Below, piece by piece: positions 43,578 to 52,784 of a DNA stretch of 55,089 nucleotides; the stretch's first letter is position 1; every line of letters begins with the position of its first letter. The stretch comes from Geitlerinema sp. PCC 9228 (GTDB lineage Bacteria > Cyanobacteriota > Cyanobacteriia > Cyanobacteriales > PCC-9228), in the NCBI RefSeq assembly GCF_001870905.1, contig NZ_LNDC01000136.1:1-55089 (forward strand). The letters run 5' to 3'. Both the position numbers and the translations under genes were made by a program. The notes beneath the pieces are model-generated. The model was given only the letters and a program-made list of their open reading frames with translations. It had not been told where the DNA came from and did no database searches.

Positions 43578-44555
43578 TTAACGAAACGATTCGTACTCGC
43601 CACCCAAATTTTCCGTAATGGTTTTGGTATTTTGAACCATCATTTTGATATAACTATCGGCAGAACTCCCTTGCGGTCCAATGGAATCAGAATATAACGC
43701 CGGTTCTGCCAACTTTACCCCAGCTTCGGTCGCTACAGTCTGAATCAGTTGGGGATTGATGGTGGTTTCGGCAAAAATCGCCGGTGCATCGGTTCGCTTC
43801 ACCGCTTCCACCAATTGTTGCACGGTTTTGGCACTGGGTTGTTCTTCCGTACTGATACCGATAAGCGTTCCCGTTACTTCCAACCCATAGGCATTGGCAT
43901 AATATTCAAAAGCATCGTGGGTGGTAATCAATTGCCGATTTTCTTCGGGAATGGTGGCAATTTGCTGTTGGATCCAATTGTGCAGCCGTTCCAGTTCGGT
44001 AACCAGTTCGTCAGTATTTTCGACAAACGCCTCTCGGTCTTCCGGGGAAAGTTCTACCAACTCATCGCGAATGGTTTCCACCATGACGATAGCATTTTTG
44101 GCACTTCCCCAAATGTGGGGGTCAGGTTCTAGGTTTTCTCCTTCCTCGGATTTTACTTGTAGCGGCGATACGGTTTCGGCAACGGCAACTTTTCTAGCGT
44201 TGATGCCAGCGGCGTTGATGAGTTTGATTAAGTTCGGTTCCAAGTTGTAGCCGTTGTACAAGATTAAATCCGCTTGTTCAAAGGCAATGCTGTCTTGGGG
44301 AACAGGTTCGTAGATATGCGGGTCGGTACCGGGTTCTAAAATTCCCGACAGTTGGATGTCGTCGCCGCCAACGGTTTCTGCCAGGTCGGTCAAAATGGTG
44401 CTGGTGGTAACAACGTTGGGGAGGTCGTTATGGCTGTTGGCAGGGTTGTTGCTGTCGGATTGGGTACAGCCACCCAGCAACACTGGCAGCAAGCACAGTC
44501 CTACGGTTAGTTTTTGCGGCAGAGAGGTTGCAAGATAGCGTATGAATGAATTCAT
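43578..44555 (-). CDS. Metal ABC transporter substrate-binding lipoprotein (Mn/Zn, TroA/MntC-like)
   Basis: The 325-residue lipoprotein (lipobox LLGGC) is a cluster A-I metal-binding protein. Putative ligands are His80 (DPHIYE), His147 (DPHIWG), His213 (TTHDAF) and Asp290 (YSDSIG). Other family sites are GISTEEQPSAKTVQQL and FAETTINPQL. The classic cyanobacterial MntC has Glu in the third position; the HHHD set here is like TroA, which binds zinc or manganese. There is no His-rich loop like that of ZnuA, so manganese remains possible, but the metal is not settled. It is divergent from the ATPase/permease pair and shares the control region at 44556-44648. Confidence 0.87.
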   Translation of the reverse strand: MNSFIRYLATSLPQKLTVGLCLLPVLLGGCTQSDSNNPANSHNDLPNVVTTSTILTDLAETVGGDDIQLSGILEPGTDPHIYEPVPQDSIAFEQADLILYNGYNLEPNLIKLINAAGINARKVAVAETVSPLQVKSEEGENLEPDPHIWGSAKNAIVMVETIRDELVELSPEDREAFVENTDELVTELERLHNWIQQQIATIPEENRQLITTHDAFEYYANAYGLEVTGTLIGISTEEQPSAKTVQQLVEAVKRTDAPAIFAETTINPQLIQTVATEAGVKLAEPALYSDSIGPQGSSADSYIKMMVQNTKTITENLGGEYESFR

Positions 44556-44567
44556 TTTTGCTTGGTG

Positions 44568-44607
44568 TTTTCATAATCTTTTCATTCTTCTATCATATTT
44601 TTTTCAT
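44568..44607. promoter_or_regulatory. Candidate operator: four 7-bp direct repeats at 11-bp spacing
   Basis: TTTTCAT occurs at 44568, 44579 and 44601, and CTATCAT at 44590, so four repeats start exactly 11 bp apart. PhoB/OmpR-type response regulators bind 7-bp direct repeats with 4-bp spacers, the same period. The array starts 13 bases upstream of the binding-protein start codon and ends just before TATATT (44615-44620), a likely -10 of the ATPase gene whose ATG is at 44649. It therefore covers the -35 position. A ManR-like regulator is a reasonable guess, not shown. Confidence 0.55.
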
Positions 44608-44648
44608 TTTTTGGTATATTGAGAGAAGTGGATAAGCTGAGAGGTTTC

Positions 44649-45401
44649 ATGAAGACGTTGACAAACAGGGAAGGGATTGCCATCGACCGGCTGTGGGTCC
44701 ACTACCGCCATGTAGAGGCTTTGCGGAATATTAACTGCCAGGTGGAAGCCGGTAAGGTGACGGGGATTATTGGTCCTAATGGTGCTGGCAAAAGTACGCT
44801 GTTGCAGGCGATGCTGGGGTTGATTCCGGCAAGTCAGGGAAAGGTGATGTACCAGGGACAGCCTTTGCAGGTGCAGTTGAAACGGGTTGCTTACGTTCCT
44901 CAGCGATCGCAAATTGATTGGACGTTTCCGGCGACGGTTTGGGATGTGGTGATGATGGGTCGCGTGAAGCATACGGGTTGGTTTCGTCGTTTTTCTAGTG
45001 TGAGTCGCCGAATTGCTTTGCAGGCTTTGGAGAGAGTGGGGATGGAAGGCTACCGCAATCGCCGAATTGGCGAACTTTCTGGCGGACAGCAGCAGCGGGT
45101 GTTTTTGGCGCGATCGCTGGCGCAACAAGCAAAAATCTTTTTCTTGGACGAACCGTTTGTGGGGGTGGATAAGAAAACAGAGGGGATTTTGTTTGATATA
45201 TTTCGGGAGTTAGCCGATGAAGGGAAAATTGTGTTAGTGGTCAATCACGATTTGGGCGAAAGTATTACCAATTTTGATAATTTAATTTTATTGAACCAAG
45301 ATTTGATTGCTAGTGGCGATCGCGCTTTGGTGTTGCAGCCGGAAAACATGCACCGTGCTTACGGCGGTCAAGTAAGCTTTTTCTCCGAACAGGTAGCATA
45401 G
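44649..45401 (+). CDS. Metal ABC transporter ATP-binding protein
   Basis: The 250-residue ATPase has Walker A GPNGAGKST, Q-loop VPQRSQIDWTFP, signature LSGGQQQR, Walker B KIFFLDEPF and the switch His in VVNHDLGES. The Q-loop block DWTFPATVWDVVMMGR is typical of zinc/manganese importers. It drives the permease encoded 18 bases downstream and pairs with the divergent binding protein, so this is an mntABC/troABC-type importer split into divergent units. ATG 44649 has GAGAGG just upstream; an earlier TTG is unlikely. Confidence 0.92.
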   Translation: MKTLTNREGIAIDRLWVHYRHVEALRNINCQVEAGKVTGIIGPNGAGKSTLLQAMLGLIPASQGKVMYQGQPLQVQLKRVAYVPQRSQIDWTFPATVWDVVMMGRVKHTGWFRRFSSVSRRIALQALERVGMEGYRNRRIGELSGGQQQRVFLARSLAQQAKIFFLDEPFVGVDKKTEGILFDIFRELADEGKIVLVVNHDLGESITNFDNLILLNQDLIASGDRALVLQPENMHRAYGGQVSFFSEQVA

Positions 45402-45419: not shown

Positions 45420-46307
45420 ATGTTCGAGATTTTCTTAGAACCTTTGCAGTACAGTTTCATGCAGCGATCGCTAATTGTGGCGGTGACGGTGGGATTGATT
45501 TGTGCTGTGGTGGGTAGCTATTTGATGGTACAGCGGTTGGCTTTGCTGGGAGATGCCATCAGCCACTCGTTGCTGCCGGGATTGGCGATCGCTTTTTTGT
45601 TGGGGGGCAATATTTTTGTGGGTGCTTTTATTGCCGGGATTGTGAGTACCATTTTGATTACTTGGATCCATACGCGATCGCCCATCAAAGAAGACGCCGC
45701 CATGGGAATTGTATTTTCCGCCTTCTTTGCCCTAGGGATTACCCTAATTACCATTATCCAGAAAAAAAATAAAATCGACTTAAACCACTTTCTATTTGGT
45801 AATATTTTAGGCGTAACAGCAGAAGATGCCCGCAACACAGCCATTATTGGGTTTATCGTCATTGCTGCCGTGGTTCTTCTCTACAAAGAACTTTTATTTT
45901 ATAGCTTCGATCGCTTGGGAGCACAAGCCGCCGGTCTGCCTGTCAATTTGCTAAACTTTGGTTTAACCATTCTCATTGCCCTAACCGTGGTTGCCAGCAT
46001 GAAATCCGTCGGCGTGATTTTGGTGCTGGCTATGCTGATTATTCCTAGTTCTACCGCTTATCTGCTAGTTCCCCGCCTCCATCAAGTCATGGTATTGGGA
46101 GCGATTTTAGGCGTTTTGTCTAGCATCAGCGGCATGTATTTAAGCTACTACTACAACTTGCCTTCGGGTCCAGCGATTGTTTTGGTGGCTTTTGGTTTAT
46201 TTTCCCTGACCTTTCTGTTCGGTCCCAGCCACGGCGTCTTGACCAATCGGCGGGGTAGCAACAAGCGAACCTCCATTATCCAAGAAATCAAAAAACTTTT
46301 GCAATAA
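45420..46307 (+). CDS. Metal ABC transporter permease
   Basis: The 295-residue membrane protein of the ABC-3 family has eight or so helices. Family blocks are MQRSLIVAVTVGLICAVVGSYLMVQRLALLGDAISHSLLPG, NHFLFGNILGVT, LGAQAAGLPVN and LVLAMLIIPSSTAYLL. It forms the channel for the Mn/Zn importer with the preceding ATPase and the divergent lipoprotein. The last 20 residues are basic and cytoplasmic. No clear terminator follows closely; one lies about 310 bases downstream. Confidence 0.93.
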   Translation: MFEIFLEPLQYSFMQRSLIVAVTVGLICAVVGSYLMVQRLALLGDAISHSLLPGLAIAFLLGGNIFVGAFIAGIVSTILITWIHTRSPIKEDAAMGIVFSAFFALGITLITIIQKKNKIDLNHFLFGNILGVTAEDARNTAIIGFIVIAAVVLLYKELLFYSFDRLGAQAAGLPVNLLNFGLTILIALTVVASMKSVGVILVLAMLIIPSSTAYLLVPRLHQVMVLGAILGVLSSISGMYLSYYYNLPSGPAIVLVAFGLFSLTFLFGPSHGVLTNRRGSNKRTSIIQEIKKLLQ

Positions 46308-46757: not shown

Positions 46758-49700
46758 ATGGCTACCAGTATTTTTGATATTCAAAATACCAACAATTCCG
46801 ATGGCAATTCTCCAGAGGTCGGGAATACAGTCACCACAAACGGCATCGTTACAGGGATTTATGATGGTGGCAATCGCGTCTTTATCCAAGACGGAACCGG
46901 ACCTTGGAATGGTCTGTTTTTGTTTCAACCAAATACTGATTCAAATACTGATTTAGAAGTTGGCGATGAAATTAAAGTCGAAGGAGAAGTAAAGGAGTCC
47001 TTTGGCTTAACGCAAATTGCCAAAGGAACGGTCACGGTTCTCAGCCAAGGCAACGAATTGCCGGAACCAGAAGTTCTGTCTACAGGGAATGTCGGTCAGG
47101 AAAAGTGGGAATCGGTTTTCGTTCGTACCGAAGACGTGGAAGTCACCGACGCCAACCCCGATGATCCCAATAATGACTTTGGCGAGTTTGCCATCGATGA
47201 TGGTTCTGGATCCGTTCGAGTGGATGACTTGGGGTCCATTACCTTCAACCCCAACGGCGGCGAAACTTTAGAATTCTTGCAGGGACCGCTAAACTATTCT
47301 TTTAGCAATTTTAAAATCGAACCCCGCAACAACGACGATTTGGGGGATATTACCGTACCCGTTTACGCAATTCAAGGAAAAGGTCACCAATCTCCCTTTA
47401 AAGACGAATCCGTCACGACTTCGGGAATTGTTACGGCTGTAGATGATAACGGATTTTATTTACAAGACCCTAACGGTGATAATGATGTAGCCACATCTGA
47501 TGGTATTTTCGTGTTTACCAATTCTTCTCCCAGCGTTAGTGCTGGTGATGAAGTAAAAGTAGAAGGAGAGGTAAGCGAATTTTTTCCTGGCGGCGAAGAT
47601 ACGGGAAATCTATCCACTACGCAAATTACCGCCGATAATTCCAACATTACGGAAATTTCCACAGGCAACAACCTTCCCGAAGCAACAGTCATTGGCGAAT
47701 CGGGTCGTACCCCTCCCACCGAAAACATCGAAGACGACAACTTTAGCGAATTCCAACCAGATGCCGATGGCATCGATTTCTTTGAATCCCTGGAAGGGAT
47801 GCGAGTAACAGCAGCAGATGCAGTTGCTGTGGGTCCGACCAATCGTTTTGATGAGATTTTCACAGTAGTTGACGGTGGTAACAATGCCACTGGAATTAGC
47901 GATCGCGGTACGCTGAATATCAGTCCCAACGATTTCAATCCCGAAAAAGTCCAAATCGACTTTAACGAAAATTTGCTACCGGATGGTTTCGAGTTTCCCC
48001 AAATCAACATCGGTTCGCAGTTGGGGGATGTTACCGGCGTCATCAGCTACGACTTTGGCAACTTCCAAATTCATCCCACCCAAGCATTCAATGCCACCAA
48101 CTCGGATATCGAACCAGAAACCACCAACATCGAAGCCACCGGGGAACAAATCACCATTGCCAGTTACAACGTCCTCAATCTAGACCCAAAAAAAGAAGAC
48201 GTAACCTTGGTTGACGAACAAGACCCCGACGAAGTAGATGACGATGTAGAGGATGGTCGATTTGAAGCGATCGCGCAGCAAATTACCGACAATCTTAACA
48301 CCCCAGACATCATCGCCTTACAAGAAATCCAAGACAACGACGGTGCCGAAATCACCCAAGAGAGTGCTGCCAACCAAACCCTGCAAACCCTCACCAATGC
48401 CATTGATAACGCTGGCGGTCCCAACTACGAATTTATCGACACTCCCGGTATCGTCCCTGCTTTTGAAAACGAAGACGGCGAAATCGTCCGTCCCACCGGC
48501 GGTCAGCCAGGCGGCAACATTCGCAACGCCTTCCTGTACAATCCAGACCGAGTAAATTTGGTAGAAGATTCGGTGGAACCCCTCACCGACCCCAAAGACC
48601 AAGCCGAAAACGAAAACAACCCCTTCTTCGGCAGCCGCATTCCCCTATCTGCTACCTTTGAATTCAACGGAGAACAGATAACTCTGGTAAACAACCACTT
48701 CTCCTCCAAAGGAGGTAGCAGTCCCATTCTCGGCGTCGAACAACCCTTTGAAGAAAGGCAAGAAGAGGTAGAAGTTAACGGTTCCCTCGACGAACGGACC
48801 AAACAAGCCAACGCCGTCAAAGACTACGTAGACGAAATTCTAAACGGAAACCCCAACGCCAATGTCGTCGCATTGGGAGATTTGAACGAATTTGAATTCG
48901 TTTCCCCTGTTGATGAAATCTTGGGTTCCAGCTTAAACAACCTCACCAAAAACTTCCCAGAAAACGAACGCTACAGCTTTATCTTCCAAGGCAACTCCCA
49001 AAGTCTGGACCACATTCTCGTTAGCGACAACCTCAAAAACGCTGTCAGCGAAGATATTGTCCATACCAACAGCGAATTTGCCGATGCCGCCAGCGACCAC
49101 GACCCCTTGGTAGCCGGATTCAACCTACCACCAACAGCCACCGAAGACTTGGTCTTAACCGAAATGGGTCGTTTCACAACTGGCGTTTTCGACGAAGGAG
49201 CTGCAGAAATTGCGGCTTTCGACCCAGAAACCGACCGTTTGTTCGTAGTCAACGGCAACGACGACACCATCGACATTCTCGATGCCAGCGACCCCACCAA
49301 TCCCACCAAAGAATTTGCCATCGACGTGACCTCATTTGGCAAAGGAGCCAATAGCGTTGATGTAAAAAATGGTACCTTAGCGATCGCGGTAGAAGCCGAA
49401 GATGGAACCGCCAACGGTCAAGCCGTCTTCTTCAACACCTCCCTAACAGAAAGTGACAATCCCCTGGCTCAGGTAGAGGTAGGTGTGCTGCCAGACATGC
49501 TTACCTTTACCGAAGATGGTAGCAAAGTGCTGGTTGCCAACGAAGCCGAACCCACCGATACCGCCGATCCAGAAGGCTCCATCAGCATTATCGATATACC
49601 AGAAAATCTTGGTAACCTCAGCCAAGACAACGTCACCGCAGCTGGTTTTACCGACTTCAACACTCAGAAAGAAGATTTGGTCAATGATGGCGTTCGTATT

Positions 49701-52700
49701 TTTAAAGGAAAATCCGTCTCCGAAGACCTAGAACCAGAATACATCAGCGTCTCTGGCGACACCGCTTGGGTAACCCTGCAAGAAAACAACGCACTTGCCA
49801 AAGTAGACCTCAACAGCAACTCCGTCTCCGACATTCTTCCCCTAGGAACCAAAGACCATAGCAAGCCTGGCAACAGTCTGGATGTCAGCGATAAAGACGA
49901 CATCGATATTGACACCTTCCCCGTATTGGGAATGTACCAGCCAGACAGCATTGCTTCCTTTACCGTCGACGGCGAAACGTATTTGGTTACCGCCAACGAA
50001 GGCGACTCCCGAGACGAAGAAGAACGAGTGGAAGACTTAACCCTCGACAGCGAAGCCTTCCCCAACGCCGACCAGCTGCAACAGGAAACCAACCTAGGTC
50101 GCTTGGACGTATCCACCATTGACGGCGATACCGATGGCGATGGAGAATTTGAGCAACTATATTCCTACGGTGCCAGGTCATTCAGCATTTGGGATAGCGA
50201 CGGCAACCAAGTTTACGATAGCGGCAACGACTTCGAACAAATTACCGCACAGCAGTTCCCCGACGACTTCAATACCGACAACGACGAAAACGACTTCGAC
50301 AGCCGCAGCGACGCCAAAGGTCCGGAACCAGAAGGCGTAACCACCGGCGTCATTGGCGACAATACCTATGCCTTCGTCGGCTTGGAACGCATCGGCGGCA
50401 TCATGGTCTACGATGTCACCGACCCAGAAAATCCCACCTTCACCAACTACATCAACAACCGCGACTTCAGCGAATCGCCAGAATCCGGCAATGCTGGCGA
50501 CTTGGGTCCAGAAGGATTGGAATTTATTGCCGCCGAAGACAGTCCCATTAATCAACCTATGCTGGCTGTCACCAACGAAGTCAGTGGTTCGACAACCTTC
50601 TATCACGTGGGAACTGGTGGTAATATTCCGCCACTGCTTACCAAACTCGACAGTACCAGCGTGGCGGAAAATCAAGAAGGAATTATCACCGTCGGGAATT
50701 TGACCACCAAAGACCTTGACGACGAAAACCACACCTATAGCCTGGTAGAGGGAGAAGGAGACACCGATAACAATTTGTTCCAGATTTTCGGGAACGAGTT
50801 GGTAACCGCAGAAACCTTTGACTTTGAAGAAAAATCCTCTCTCAACGTTCGCATACGTACCGAAGATGACAGTGGCGGTACCAGCGAACAAAGTTTCGCC
50901 ATTGAGGTTACTGATGTCAACGAAGCTCCTACCTTAGCCAAGGAGTTTGACGATATCAGTGCCACCGCTAACGACAACCAAAGCATCAACGTCTTCTCAT
51001 TTTTCACCGATGCCGAACAGGCAAGCAACACACTTTCCTACACGGTGGAAAGTAGCAATTCGGATGTGGTTGCATCCGATTTCAACCCACAGACAGGAAA
51101 GCTTTCCTTAAACTTCCAAAACGCTGGCGTTGCTGATATCACCGTTAAAGCGGAAGATGAGGCAGGTTTGGAAGTTGCCGATACTTTCAGTGTAGAGGTA
51201 GAACCAGAACCGCAAACCGAACCCAGTAACGAACCTCCTAGTATCGACCACATTGACATCGAACAGAATATTTCTGTTGAAAATACCATCGAACTCAATT
51301 TCAATATCTTCTCGCAGGTGTTCCAGGATTCGGAAGAGTCGGAATTGGAAGCTATTCGCATCGACAGCCTGCCGGAGAATGCTACTTTGCTTCTAGGTGG
51401 TGAAGAGGTTACATCCAAGCAAATTATTGGTGCAGAAGACATTGACCGGTTGGTGGTAAAACCCGGAGAAGGATTTACGGGAAATGTAAATTTCCGTTGG
51501 AGTGCTTCTGATGGGGAACGGTTTAGCCTGTTTGGCAAAACCATCGACATTGAGGTAACGGGAGTTAGTATTCAGCGGAATGTTTCGGTTCAGAATATCG
51601 AACTCAATGTCAACACCTTTGAACGGGTCTTTGAACTCTTCAGCAACGTTTCTGGGTCGCAACTACAGTCCATTCGCATCGACAGCCTGCCGGAGAATGC
51701 AACGTTACTCCTAGGTGAAGAAACGGTTTCTGTCGGACAGGTGATTACCGTCGAACAGATTAACCAGCTAATTGTTGAACGCAGCGAAGGGTTTACCGGA
51801 ACTGTTGATTTCCGTTGGAGTGGTTCTGACGGCGAATCTTTCCTCGTCTCCAACAAAACTGTCAGCGTGGAACTGACTGATGACGTTGAAGATGAAGACG
51901 GGGAAGAAGACGACGGAGAAGACCCCGATATGGAGATGGGTGATGGCGACACTGACGGTGATGTTGGTGAAGATGCCGATGACGATGACGACGACGATGA
52001 CGATGATGATGATGATGATGACGACGATACCTTCGTACCGGATAATGAGGTAACCGGCAGCGACGAAGAAGAAACCTTGGAAGGTTCTGAAGGGGACGAC
52101 GACATCACAGCAGCAGCCGGCAATGATATTATTGTTGCTAGTTTTGGTAGCGATCGCGCCAGTGGTGGCGAAGACAGCGATTTAATCTTTGGCAATGCTG
52201 GTAACGATTCCCTAGATGGCGGTATCGGCAACGATGTCTTGTTCGGCGGTATGGATGACGACGAACTCTCCGGCGGTGCAGGCAACGACGTTGTCAGCGG
52301 CGATTTAGGCAACGACCTGGTTTCCGGTGGCGATGGCGGCGATATCCTCATCGGTTCTCAAGGTAACGACACGGTCAACGGCGAAGCTGGTGGTGACCTG
52401 CTCTTCGGCAACCAGGGGAACGACGAACTCTCCGGTGGTGATGGTAATGACTCCCTCTTTGGTGGTCAAAACGAAGATATCATTACCGGCGGTGCAGGCG
52501 ACGACTTGCTGAGTGGCGATTTAGGGTTCGACACGCTTATCGGCGGCGAAGGCAGTGACAGGTTCCTGTTGCGACCTGGTGTTGGTAGCAATACGGTAGA
52601 AGACTTTGAAGATGGCGTGGATTCCCTACGCTTGGTTGGTGGGTTGAGTTTCTCACAACTTACGATTGCTTCCACCGATGTGGGTGTTTCTATTTCTCTT

Positions 52701-52784
52701 GGGGAGCAAACCCTAGCCAGTCTCGTAGGGGTGCAGGCAGACGAGATAACGGAGGAGGATTTCCAACAAATGAATGCTCTGTAG
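46758..52784 (+). CDS. Giant ExeM/NucH-type extracellular nuclease with RTX C-terminus
   Basis: The 2008-residue protein has no Sec signal. The order is: OB-fold-like lead domains (about 1-450; VTTNGIVTGIYDGGNRVFIQDG and a second copy VTTSGIVTAVDDNGFYLQD), an endonuclease/exonuclease/phosphatase domain (about 463-790; ASYNVLNLD, IIALQEIQDN, NNHFSSKGG, ALGDLNEFEF, ASDHDPLVAGF with the metal and catalytic residues), a choice-of-anchor I propeller domain (about 795-1287), cadherin-like segments, two duplicated modules of about 100 residues (about 1500-1705), an acidic linker with 17 consecutive Asp, and RTX calcium-binding repeats (GGAGNDVVSGDLGND type, about 1775-1935). RTX plus no signal peptide indicates type I secretion. 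It should digest extracellular DNA. GAGGAG precedes the ATG. Confidence 0.9.
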   Translation: MATSIFDIQNTNNSDGNSPEVGNTVTTNGIVTGIYDGGNRVFIQDGTGPWNGLFLFQPNTDSNTDLEVGDEIKVEGEVKESFGLTQIAKGTVTVLSQGNELPEPEVLSTGNVGQEKWESVFVRTEDVEVTDANPDDPNNDFGEFAIDDGSGSVRVDDLGSITFNPNGGETLEFLQGPLNYSFSNFKIEPRNNDDLGDITVPVYAIQGKGHQSPFKDESVTTSGIVTAVDDNGFYLQDPNGDNDVATSDGIFVFTNSSPSVSAGDEVKVEGEVSEFFPGGEDTGNLSTTQITADNSNITEISTGNNLPEATVIGESGRTPPTENIEDDNFSEFQPDADGIDFFESLEGMRVTAADAVAVGPTNRFDEIFTVVDGGNNATGISDRGTLNISPNDFNPEKVQIDFNENLLPDGFEFPQINIGSQLGDVTGVISYDFGNFQIHPTQAFNATNSDIEPETTNIEATGEQITIASYNVLNLDPKKEDVTLVDEQDPDEVDDDVEDGRFEAIAQQITDNLNTPDIIALQEIQDNDGAEITQESAANQTLQTLTNAIDNAGGPNYEFIDTPGIVPAFENEDGEIVRPTGGQPGGNIRNAFLYNPDRVNLVEDSVEPLTDPKDQAENENNPFFGSRIPLSATFEFNGEQITLVNNHFSSKGGSSPILGVEQPFEERQEEVEVNGSLDERTKQANAVKDYVDEILNGNPNANVVALGDLNEFEFVSPVDEILGSSLNNLTKNFPENERYSFIFQGNSQSLDHILVSDNLKNAVSEDIVHTNSEFADAASDHDPLVAGFNLPPTATEDLVLTEMGRFTTGVFDEGAAEIAAFDPETDRLFVVNGNDDTIDILDASDPTNPTKEFAIDVTSFGKGANSVDVKNGTLAIAVEAEDGTANGQAVFFNTSLTESDNPLAQVEVGVLPDMLTFTEDGSKVLVANEAEPTDTADPEGSISIIDIPENLGNLSQDNVTAAGFTDFNTQKEDLVNDGVRIFKGKSVSEDLEPEYISVSGDTAWVTLQENNALAKVDLNSNSVSDILPLGTKDHSKPGNSLDVSDKDDIDIDTFPVLGMYQPDSIASFTVDGETYLVTANEGDSRDEEERVEDLTLDSEAFPNADQLQQETNLGRLDVSTIDGDTDGDGEFEQLYSYGARSFSIWDSDGNQVYDSGNDFEQITAQQFPDDFNTDNDENDFDSRSDAKGPEPEGVTTGVIGDNTYAFVGLERIGGIMVYDVTDPENPTFTNYINNRDFSESPESGNAGDLGPEGLEFIAAEDSPINQPMLAVTNEVSGSTTFYHVGTGGNIPPLLTKLDSTSVAENQEGIITVGNLTTKDLDDENHTYSLVEGEGDTDNNLFQIFGNELVTAETFDFEEKSSLNVRIRTEDDSGGTSEQSFAIEVTDVNEAPTLAKEFDDISATANDNQSINVFSFFTDAEQASNTLSYTVESSNSDVVASDFNPQTGKLSLNFQNAGVADITVKAEDEAGLEVADTFSVEVEPEPQTEPSNEPPSIDHIDIEQNISVENTIELNFNIFSQVFQDSEESELEAIRIDSLPENATLLLGGEEVTSKQIIGAEDIDRLVVKPGEGFTGNVNFRWSASDGERFSLFGKTIDIEVTGVSIQRNVSVQNIELNVNTFERVFELFSNVSGSQLQSIRIDSLPENATLLLGEETVSVGQVITVEQINQLIVERSEGFTGTVDFRWSGSDGESFLVSNKTVSVELTDDVEDEDGEEDDGEDPDMEMGDGDTDGDVGEDADDDDDDDDDDDDDDDDDTFVPDNEVTGSDEEETLEGSEGDDDITAAAGNDIIVASFGSDRASGGEDSDLIFGNAGNDSLDGGIGNDVLFGGMDDDELSGGAGNDVVSGDLGNDLVSGGDGGDILIGSQGNDTVNGEAGGDLLFGNQGNDELSGGDGNDSLFGGQNEDIITGGAGDDLLSGDLGFDTLIGGEGSDRFLLRPGVGSNTVEDFEDGVDSLRLVGGLSFSQLTIASTDVGVSISLGEQTLASLVGVQADEITEEDFQQMNAL
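51262..51879 (+). repeat. Tandemly duplicated module within the nuclease gene
   Basis: Two adjacent modules of about 100 residues share IRIDSLPENATLLLG and GFTGxVxFRWSxSDGExF. At DNA level the 29 bases at 51354-51382 and 51672-51700 are identical. This shows a recent duplication or gene conversion of the stretch just before the acidic linker. Confidence 0.8.

Follow-up and report, generated by a model that had tools for sequence, protein, structure and literature searches.

The spacer between two divergent metal-transporter genes of Geitlerinema sp. PCC 9228 carries four tandem TTTCAT-type half-sites, and we judge it probable, at roughly four chances in five, that this array is the operator through which the response regulator ManR would control a divergent manganese importer by repression. 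This reading draws on the conservation of the repeats and of their spacing among relatives, on the occurrence of the same box almost exclusively at manganese-transport genes, and on its presence at the mntCAB genes of the genus Synechocystis. The window referred to below is the whole stretch of DNA that was analysed, 55,089 nucleotides in length.

The repeat array and its setting

The genes for a substrate-binding lipoprotein (SBP) and for the ATPase of a metal ABC transporter diverge in the window from a 93-bp spacer (44556-44648), with a permease gene following that of the ATPase (Table 1). Direct reading of this spacer bore out the preliminary description in its main observation, four 7-mers that recur every 11 bp exactly (44568-44607), and corrected it in one detail: the gap between the last repeat and TATATT is seven bases (44608-44614) rather than eight.

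Table 1. Coordinates of the half-sites, candidate promoter elements and transporter genes in the window.
Feature	Position	Strand	Basis
Half-site 1, TTTTCAT	44568..44574	+	direct sequence reading; conserved half-site class
Half-site 2, TTTTCAT	44579..44585	+	11 bp from site 1; direct reading, conservation
Half-site 3, CTATCAT	44590..44596	+	direct reading; A favoured here in four-site arrays
Half-site 4, TTTTCAT	44601..44607	+	direct reading, spacing analysis
TATATT, proposed -10 of the ATPase-permease transcript	44615..44620	+	read; position conserved
TATGAT, candidate -10 for SBP transcription, sharing bases with half-site 3	44592..44597	-	inferred from sequence and from the A favoured at the third site
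Metal ABC transporter substrate-binding lipoprotein (SBP; 'mntC'-like, His at third ligand)	43578..44555	-	
ABC transporter ATPase (MntA-like), ATG at 44649	44649..45401	+	
ABC transporter permease (MntB-like)	45420..46307	+	

The array stands out from its surroundings. A scoring matrix derived from 62 spacers of relatives, the window spacer among them, gave 29.8, 26.8 and 21.3 on the array, the next-best place in the 55-kb window reaching 2.4; and the pattern formed by the first three sites has a single match in the 4.8-Mb genome. With one mismatch allowed, the same genome yields 10 matches, two of which are the mnt array itself and one of which lies upstream of a GDT1 gene, while the remaining seven, in or beside unrelated genes, look like chance. 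Rfam returned no match in the window spacer. Downstream of the permease gene, the window encodes a predicted secreted protein of 2008 amino acids (46758-52784, plus strand), with endonuclease/exonuclease/phosphatase and choice-of-anchor I domains and RTX calcium-binding repeats.

Conservation of the repeats and their basic unit

Loci for comparison were gathered by protein homology and not by motif, with the SBP as query in 149 genomes belonging to the order and the ATPase in named genomes; a search for genomes at the family level returned the window's own genome alone. From these loci 107 spacers were extracted, of which 101 were distinct and 62 were left once similar ones had been removed, and the divergent SBP/ATPase layout is retained in nearly all the loci collected. 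The 62 non-redundant spacers gave the following results. First, at least one TTTCAT-N5-TTTCAT pair is present in 60 of them. Second, pairs at a lag of 11 bp number 91, where 100 shuffled sets gave 0.22 on average and never more than 2. Third, the half-sites lie overwhelmingly on the ATPase strand (202, against 30 on the opposite one), and those on the reverse strand form no lag-11 pair. The array is thus of the tandem type used by OmpR/PhoB-type regulators, with at least two direct repeats separated by about one helical turn. The preliminary description had staked its proposal on such conservation in close relatives, and on this point the proposal holds, both the repeats and their 11-bp spacing having been kept. 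In Laspinema-type spacers (L013, L023, L061, L066, L071 and L082) the strict pair is absent and TTTCATATTTNATTCACAATGGNTTCATATTT is present, apparently a decayed or variant array.

These data bear directly on the view that the repeats are a chance pattern in an AT-rich promoter, without any regulatory role. The spacer is T-rich, and such DNA often holds six-mers of this class. However, when the 93-bp spacer was shuffled 40,000 times with its dinucleotides preserved and the half-site taken as [TC][TAC]TCAT, a lag-11 pair arose in 218 of the shuffles, a triple in 1 and four sites in 0. Because this half-site class was picked after the sequence had been seen, it is conservation that provides the independent test, and the fixed spacing and strand across the spacers refute chance, to which we accord next to no probability.

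The number of half-sites varies more than their spacing does. Only a single pair is found in 32 of the 62 spacers; four sites spaced 11-12-11 occur in 14, and spaced 11-11-11 in three, namely, the window, Oscillatoriales M59_W2019_021 (L040) and Baaleninema simplex (L043); and six spacers have two pairs 22-24 bp apart. Since the spacing is fixed at 11 bp within pairs but variable between them, where it is mostly 11, 12 or 22-24 bp, the basic unit is the pair, as expected if one dimer occupies two half-sites, and the four-site array is a local version of it. Of the earlier suggestion that the four half-sites serve two dimers, the dimer units therefore fit the pair spacing, whereas the number four is not required, half of the spacers having one pair.

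Target genes, candidate regulator and metal

The distribution of the box was surveyed by scanning 100 whole genomes with TTTCATANTNNTTTCATNTTT, which gave 42 matches in 36 genomes, against 1 for the reversed control pattern. All but one of these exact matches (41 of 42) are at manganese-transport genes: 39 upstream of an SBP gene, comprising 33 of the divergent type and six at Synechocystis-type mntC, one upstream of a UPF0016/GDT1 gene (L237) and one upstream of an MntP gene (L236). The matches at SBP genes were confirmed by tblastn in 28 of the 30 loci fetched, and the others were assigned by their coordinates against the SBP homology listing. The one match away from any recognised manganese gene (L226, on G049:C171) is an exact box which, together with a second, inverted pair, lies upstream of a gene that contains repeated segments and has a gene for a rubredoxin-like flavoprotein close by (L226/L238, G049:C171:4271).

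Genes for MntH, the Nramp-type transporter, extend this pattern. The box lies close upstream, in the same orientation, at all eight full-scoring MntH/Nramp genes, with scores of 17.5-31.1, the best of 25 unrelated 3-kb loci scoring 14.7; and in none of these eight genomes was an SBP of the window's clade listed by the SBP homology search of 149 genomes. Such restriction to manganese-transport genes is what would be expected of a ManR operator. Huang and Wu reportedly found in 2004 that ManR binds the promoter of the Nramp gene mntH in Anabaena sp. PCC 7120 via a novel regulatory DNA motif, and the ManR motif may already have been described in that report.

At GDT1 genes the picture is more varied. 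The genome's own GDT1/UPF0016 gene (L239, G000:C133:14355-14969) has a box-like array about 230-290 bp upstream, in the same orientation, whose scores of 17.7 and 16.8 make it the second-best array in this genome, and some UPF0016/GDT1 genes have boxes upstream, at a distance of about 110-330 bp. Box-like repeats exceed the null in only about a third of GDT1 homologues, with a slightly different middle (TTTTTG), and for this reason we treat GDT1 as a possible target. A riboswitch of the yybP-ykoY leader type, considered as an explanation for the distance to GDT1, found no support, the Rfam matches in 19 loci being to tRNA only.

What links the box to a particular regulator is mntCAB. In Synechocystis, ManS phosphorylates ManR when manganese is sufficient, and ManR then binds the mntCAB promoter and represses it (PMC7020235, PMC4361706, PMC13421787), making this operon an established direct target (PMC7020235, PMC13421787). 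The portions of the two reviews considered here (PMC7020235, PMC13421787) state no binding motif for ManR, and text searches of the literature gave nothing relevant. We found the box at the mntCAB loci of the genus Synechocystis (L160 and L162), with scores of 25-27, and at related mntCAB loci, with scores of 21-31; the SBP encoded at the former is near-identical to the MntC of PDB entries 4irm and 1xvl, so that in Synechocystis-genus genomes the box is present at a promoter with published ManR control. ManR itself was identified in a Synechocystis-genus genome by the gene order psaA-psaB / RR / pdhB / ccmK3 / ccmK4, slr1837, the gene for Synechocystis ManR, being a neighbour of ccmK3/ccmK4, and by its cysteine pattern (Cys64/152/228 in the candidate versus Cys64/154/230 in the published ManR).

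The genome under study encodes a ManR orthologue as well (G000:C73:25320-26009), a reciprocal best hit at 59% identity with receiver and winged-helix domains (PF00072 and PF00486), and strong homologues (E < 1e-68, one match each) are found in 95 of the 100 genomes. In one genome (G003:C62, L236/L319) the ManR orthologue adjoins mntP, a manganese efflux gene with the box upstream; no MntP gene is near manR at the 29 other manR loci. The box is absent from 29 of 30 manR loci, and autoregulation of ManR thus lends no support to the assignment.

ManR is not the sole candidate, and another OmpR-family regulator, such as RpaB, SphR or an RppA-like protein, could read the array: the genome encodes 11 proteins with this DNA-binding domain, and direct repeats are bound by several members of the family. 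Three observations make this improbable in our view. First, published examples of HLR1, the element read by RpaB, are of the TTACA type and have a period of 10 bp (PMC6331805), as opposed to TTTCAT at 11 bp, and the window array does not conform to it. Second, the exact matches are nearly all at manganese genes, and not at light or phosphate genes. Third, the only published regulator of the shared target, mntCAB, is ManR. The earlier attribution to an OmpR/PhoB-family regulator of ManR type is accordingly supported and, since the same box stands at Synechocystis-type mntCAB, a published ManR target (PMC7020235), ManR is, within the OmpR family, the best-supported putative reader of the array.

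A different class of regulator, a metal sensor of the Fur, Zur, MntR or DtxR type acting through a palindrome, comes into consideration through the SBP itself, whose best NCBIfam model is the zinc protein AztC (below cut-off) and whose paralogues, about 45% identical to it, are at Zur-type loci. However, the palindrome of the Zur/Fur type, GATAATGATTATC, is absent from the window spacer; it is found at most of the paralogous SBP loci and ZnuA-like loci, among them the genome's own ZnuA-like locus (L003), and the loci with the palindrome lack the TTTCAT box. We therefore regard a palindrome-reading sensor as exceedingly unlikely, and the second test set by the preliminary description, a Zur/Fur-type palindrome in the region, left its proposal standing. 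The paralogous SBP genes (L003 and L134-L153) are mostly divergent from their own ATPase gene too, with the Zur-type palindrome in the spacer; theirs is the same layout with a different regulator.

The metal is uncertain from the protein alone, given the zinc model and the third metal ligand. The window SBP is 31.7% identical to Synechocystis-type MntC and has His (TTHDAF) where the latter has Glu, thereby departing from the His-His-Glu-Asp ligand set of Synechocystis MntC, and this His is kept in 107 of 110 loci of its clade. The manganese reading and the 'mntC' label used previously hence lean mainly on the box: its occurrence at manganese loci speaks for the name, and the protein is no close orthologue of Synechocystis MntC. 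Mn(II) is accordingly a putative substrate.

Promoter geometry, proposed mechanism and known systems

How the box sits on promoters bears on the sense of the regulation. In the 32 single-pair spacers, a -10-like TANNCT begins 8 bp past the pair, the box covers the -35 region, no consensus -35 is present, and TATAGAT, -10-like on the opposite strand, lies just ahead of the pair. Over all 62 spacers, TANNNT is found 6-10 nt past the last pair in 45. Many single-pair relatives also conserve a further stretch, roughly ATCTNNNATATTAYTTCC, which is found 12-30 bp ahead of the pair, towards the SBP gene. Four-site arrays differ at the third site, which reads TATCAT in 12 of 17 of them, versus 4 of 51 other sites (Fisher p = 1e-6, kinship ignored); on the other strand this is TATGAT, which may also serve the SBP gene as its -10. 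In the four-site spacers L015, L034, L035, L037, L049 and L050 the array overlays a TTGACA-17/18-CATAAT promoter; since two of these are Okeania-like, we count at least five of the 17 four-site spacers as independent cases. At mntH, a -10-like element precedes the box and the ATG follows it.

With the same box and the same regulator, ManR (or a relative) might instead act as a PhoB-like activator, the repeats replacing the -35 element. The single-pair geometry, taken alone, would allow this, for it is also used by PhoB-type activators, and the short gap ahead of TATATT in the window is in keeping with it. The mntH genes and the TTGACA-containing spacers, in contrast, favour repression: beside the ATG and downstream of the -10-like element, there is hardly a position from which an activator of the OmpR family could act, and in five four-site spacers a complete promoter lies under the array. 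In both settings the box sits on core promoter or start-site DNA, in keeping with a repressor. Furthermore, the regulation of mntCAB by ManS/ManR in Synechocystis is negative (PMC7020235). We thus consider activation unlikely, if the least improbable of the alternatives weighed.

In the repression model that we favour, a dimer of ManR, an OmpR/PhoB-family response regulator, would read two tandem TTTCAT half-sites 11 bp, or one helical turn, apart, and the window array would represent two such dimer units end to end. The array overlaps the -35/spacer region of the putative ATPase-permease promoter, as well as any DNA that could plausibly serve the SBP gene as a promoter. Phosphorylated ManR, occupying this array while manganese is sufficient, would bar RNA polymerase from both divergent genes. 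Under manganese shortage, dephosphorylated ManR would leave and the whole importer could be made. We infer the involvement of ManR from the shared box and the published target; phosphorylation dependence and repression in two directions are predicted on similar grounds.

It is tempting to speculate further, although here the odds seem to us to be against the full proposal, that a single box marks out a manganese regulon that spans the cyanobacteria and has outputs of opposite sign. The divergent importer, mntCAB and MntH would be repressed over their core promoter or start, the phosphorylated regulator could activate export at some GDT1 genes and, in one genome, at mntP, and the His-ligand SBP clade would be a manganese, and not a zinc, importer. 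What seems new is that mntCAB, MntH and the divergent importer, and possibly MntP and GDT1 as well, share a single box, together with the spacing rules of that box. A box readable from sequence would allow the ManR regulon to be called in any cyanobacterium, and would place MntH under the same control, possibly along with the transporters MntP and GDT1. It further predicts that a widespread SBP clade whose best model is that of a zinc protein carries the metal of the water-splitting centre, manganese, and it opens the model of repression at two promoters to direct test.

Among known systems, the pho box of PhoB/SphR consists of tandem direct repeats that recur every 11 bp ahead of a -10, with each two repeats taking up one dimer. 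The window array shares the tandem 11-bp repeats before a -10, and differs in its half-site sequence, in the box being directed at manganese and not phosphate genes, and in the repressor-like geometry at mntH. HLR1 of RpaB, unlike the array in sequence and period as noted above, is likewise an OmpR-family direct repeat, and has been reported to repress from within core promoters (PMC6331805). Closer is ManS/ManR-mntCAB of Synechocystis sp. PCC 6803, where an OmpR-family regulator also has a manganese ABC importer as its target, and Synechocystis-genus mntC has TTTCAT-N5-TTTCAT upstream in the same orientation relative to mntC. However, mntCAB is a single operon, whereas the SBP of the window, with its low identity to MntC and different third ligand, is divergent from the ATPase and permease genes, with one array between the promoters. 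Finally, the ManR-Nramp (mntH) system of Anabaena sp. PCC 7120 probably involves the same regulator and possibly the same motif, in line with the box at every full-scoring MntH gene found here.
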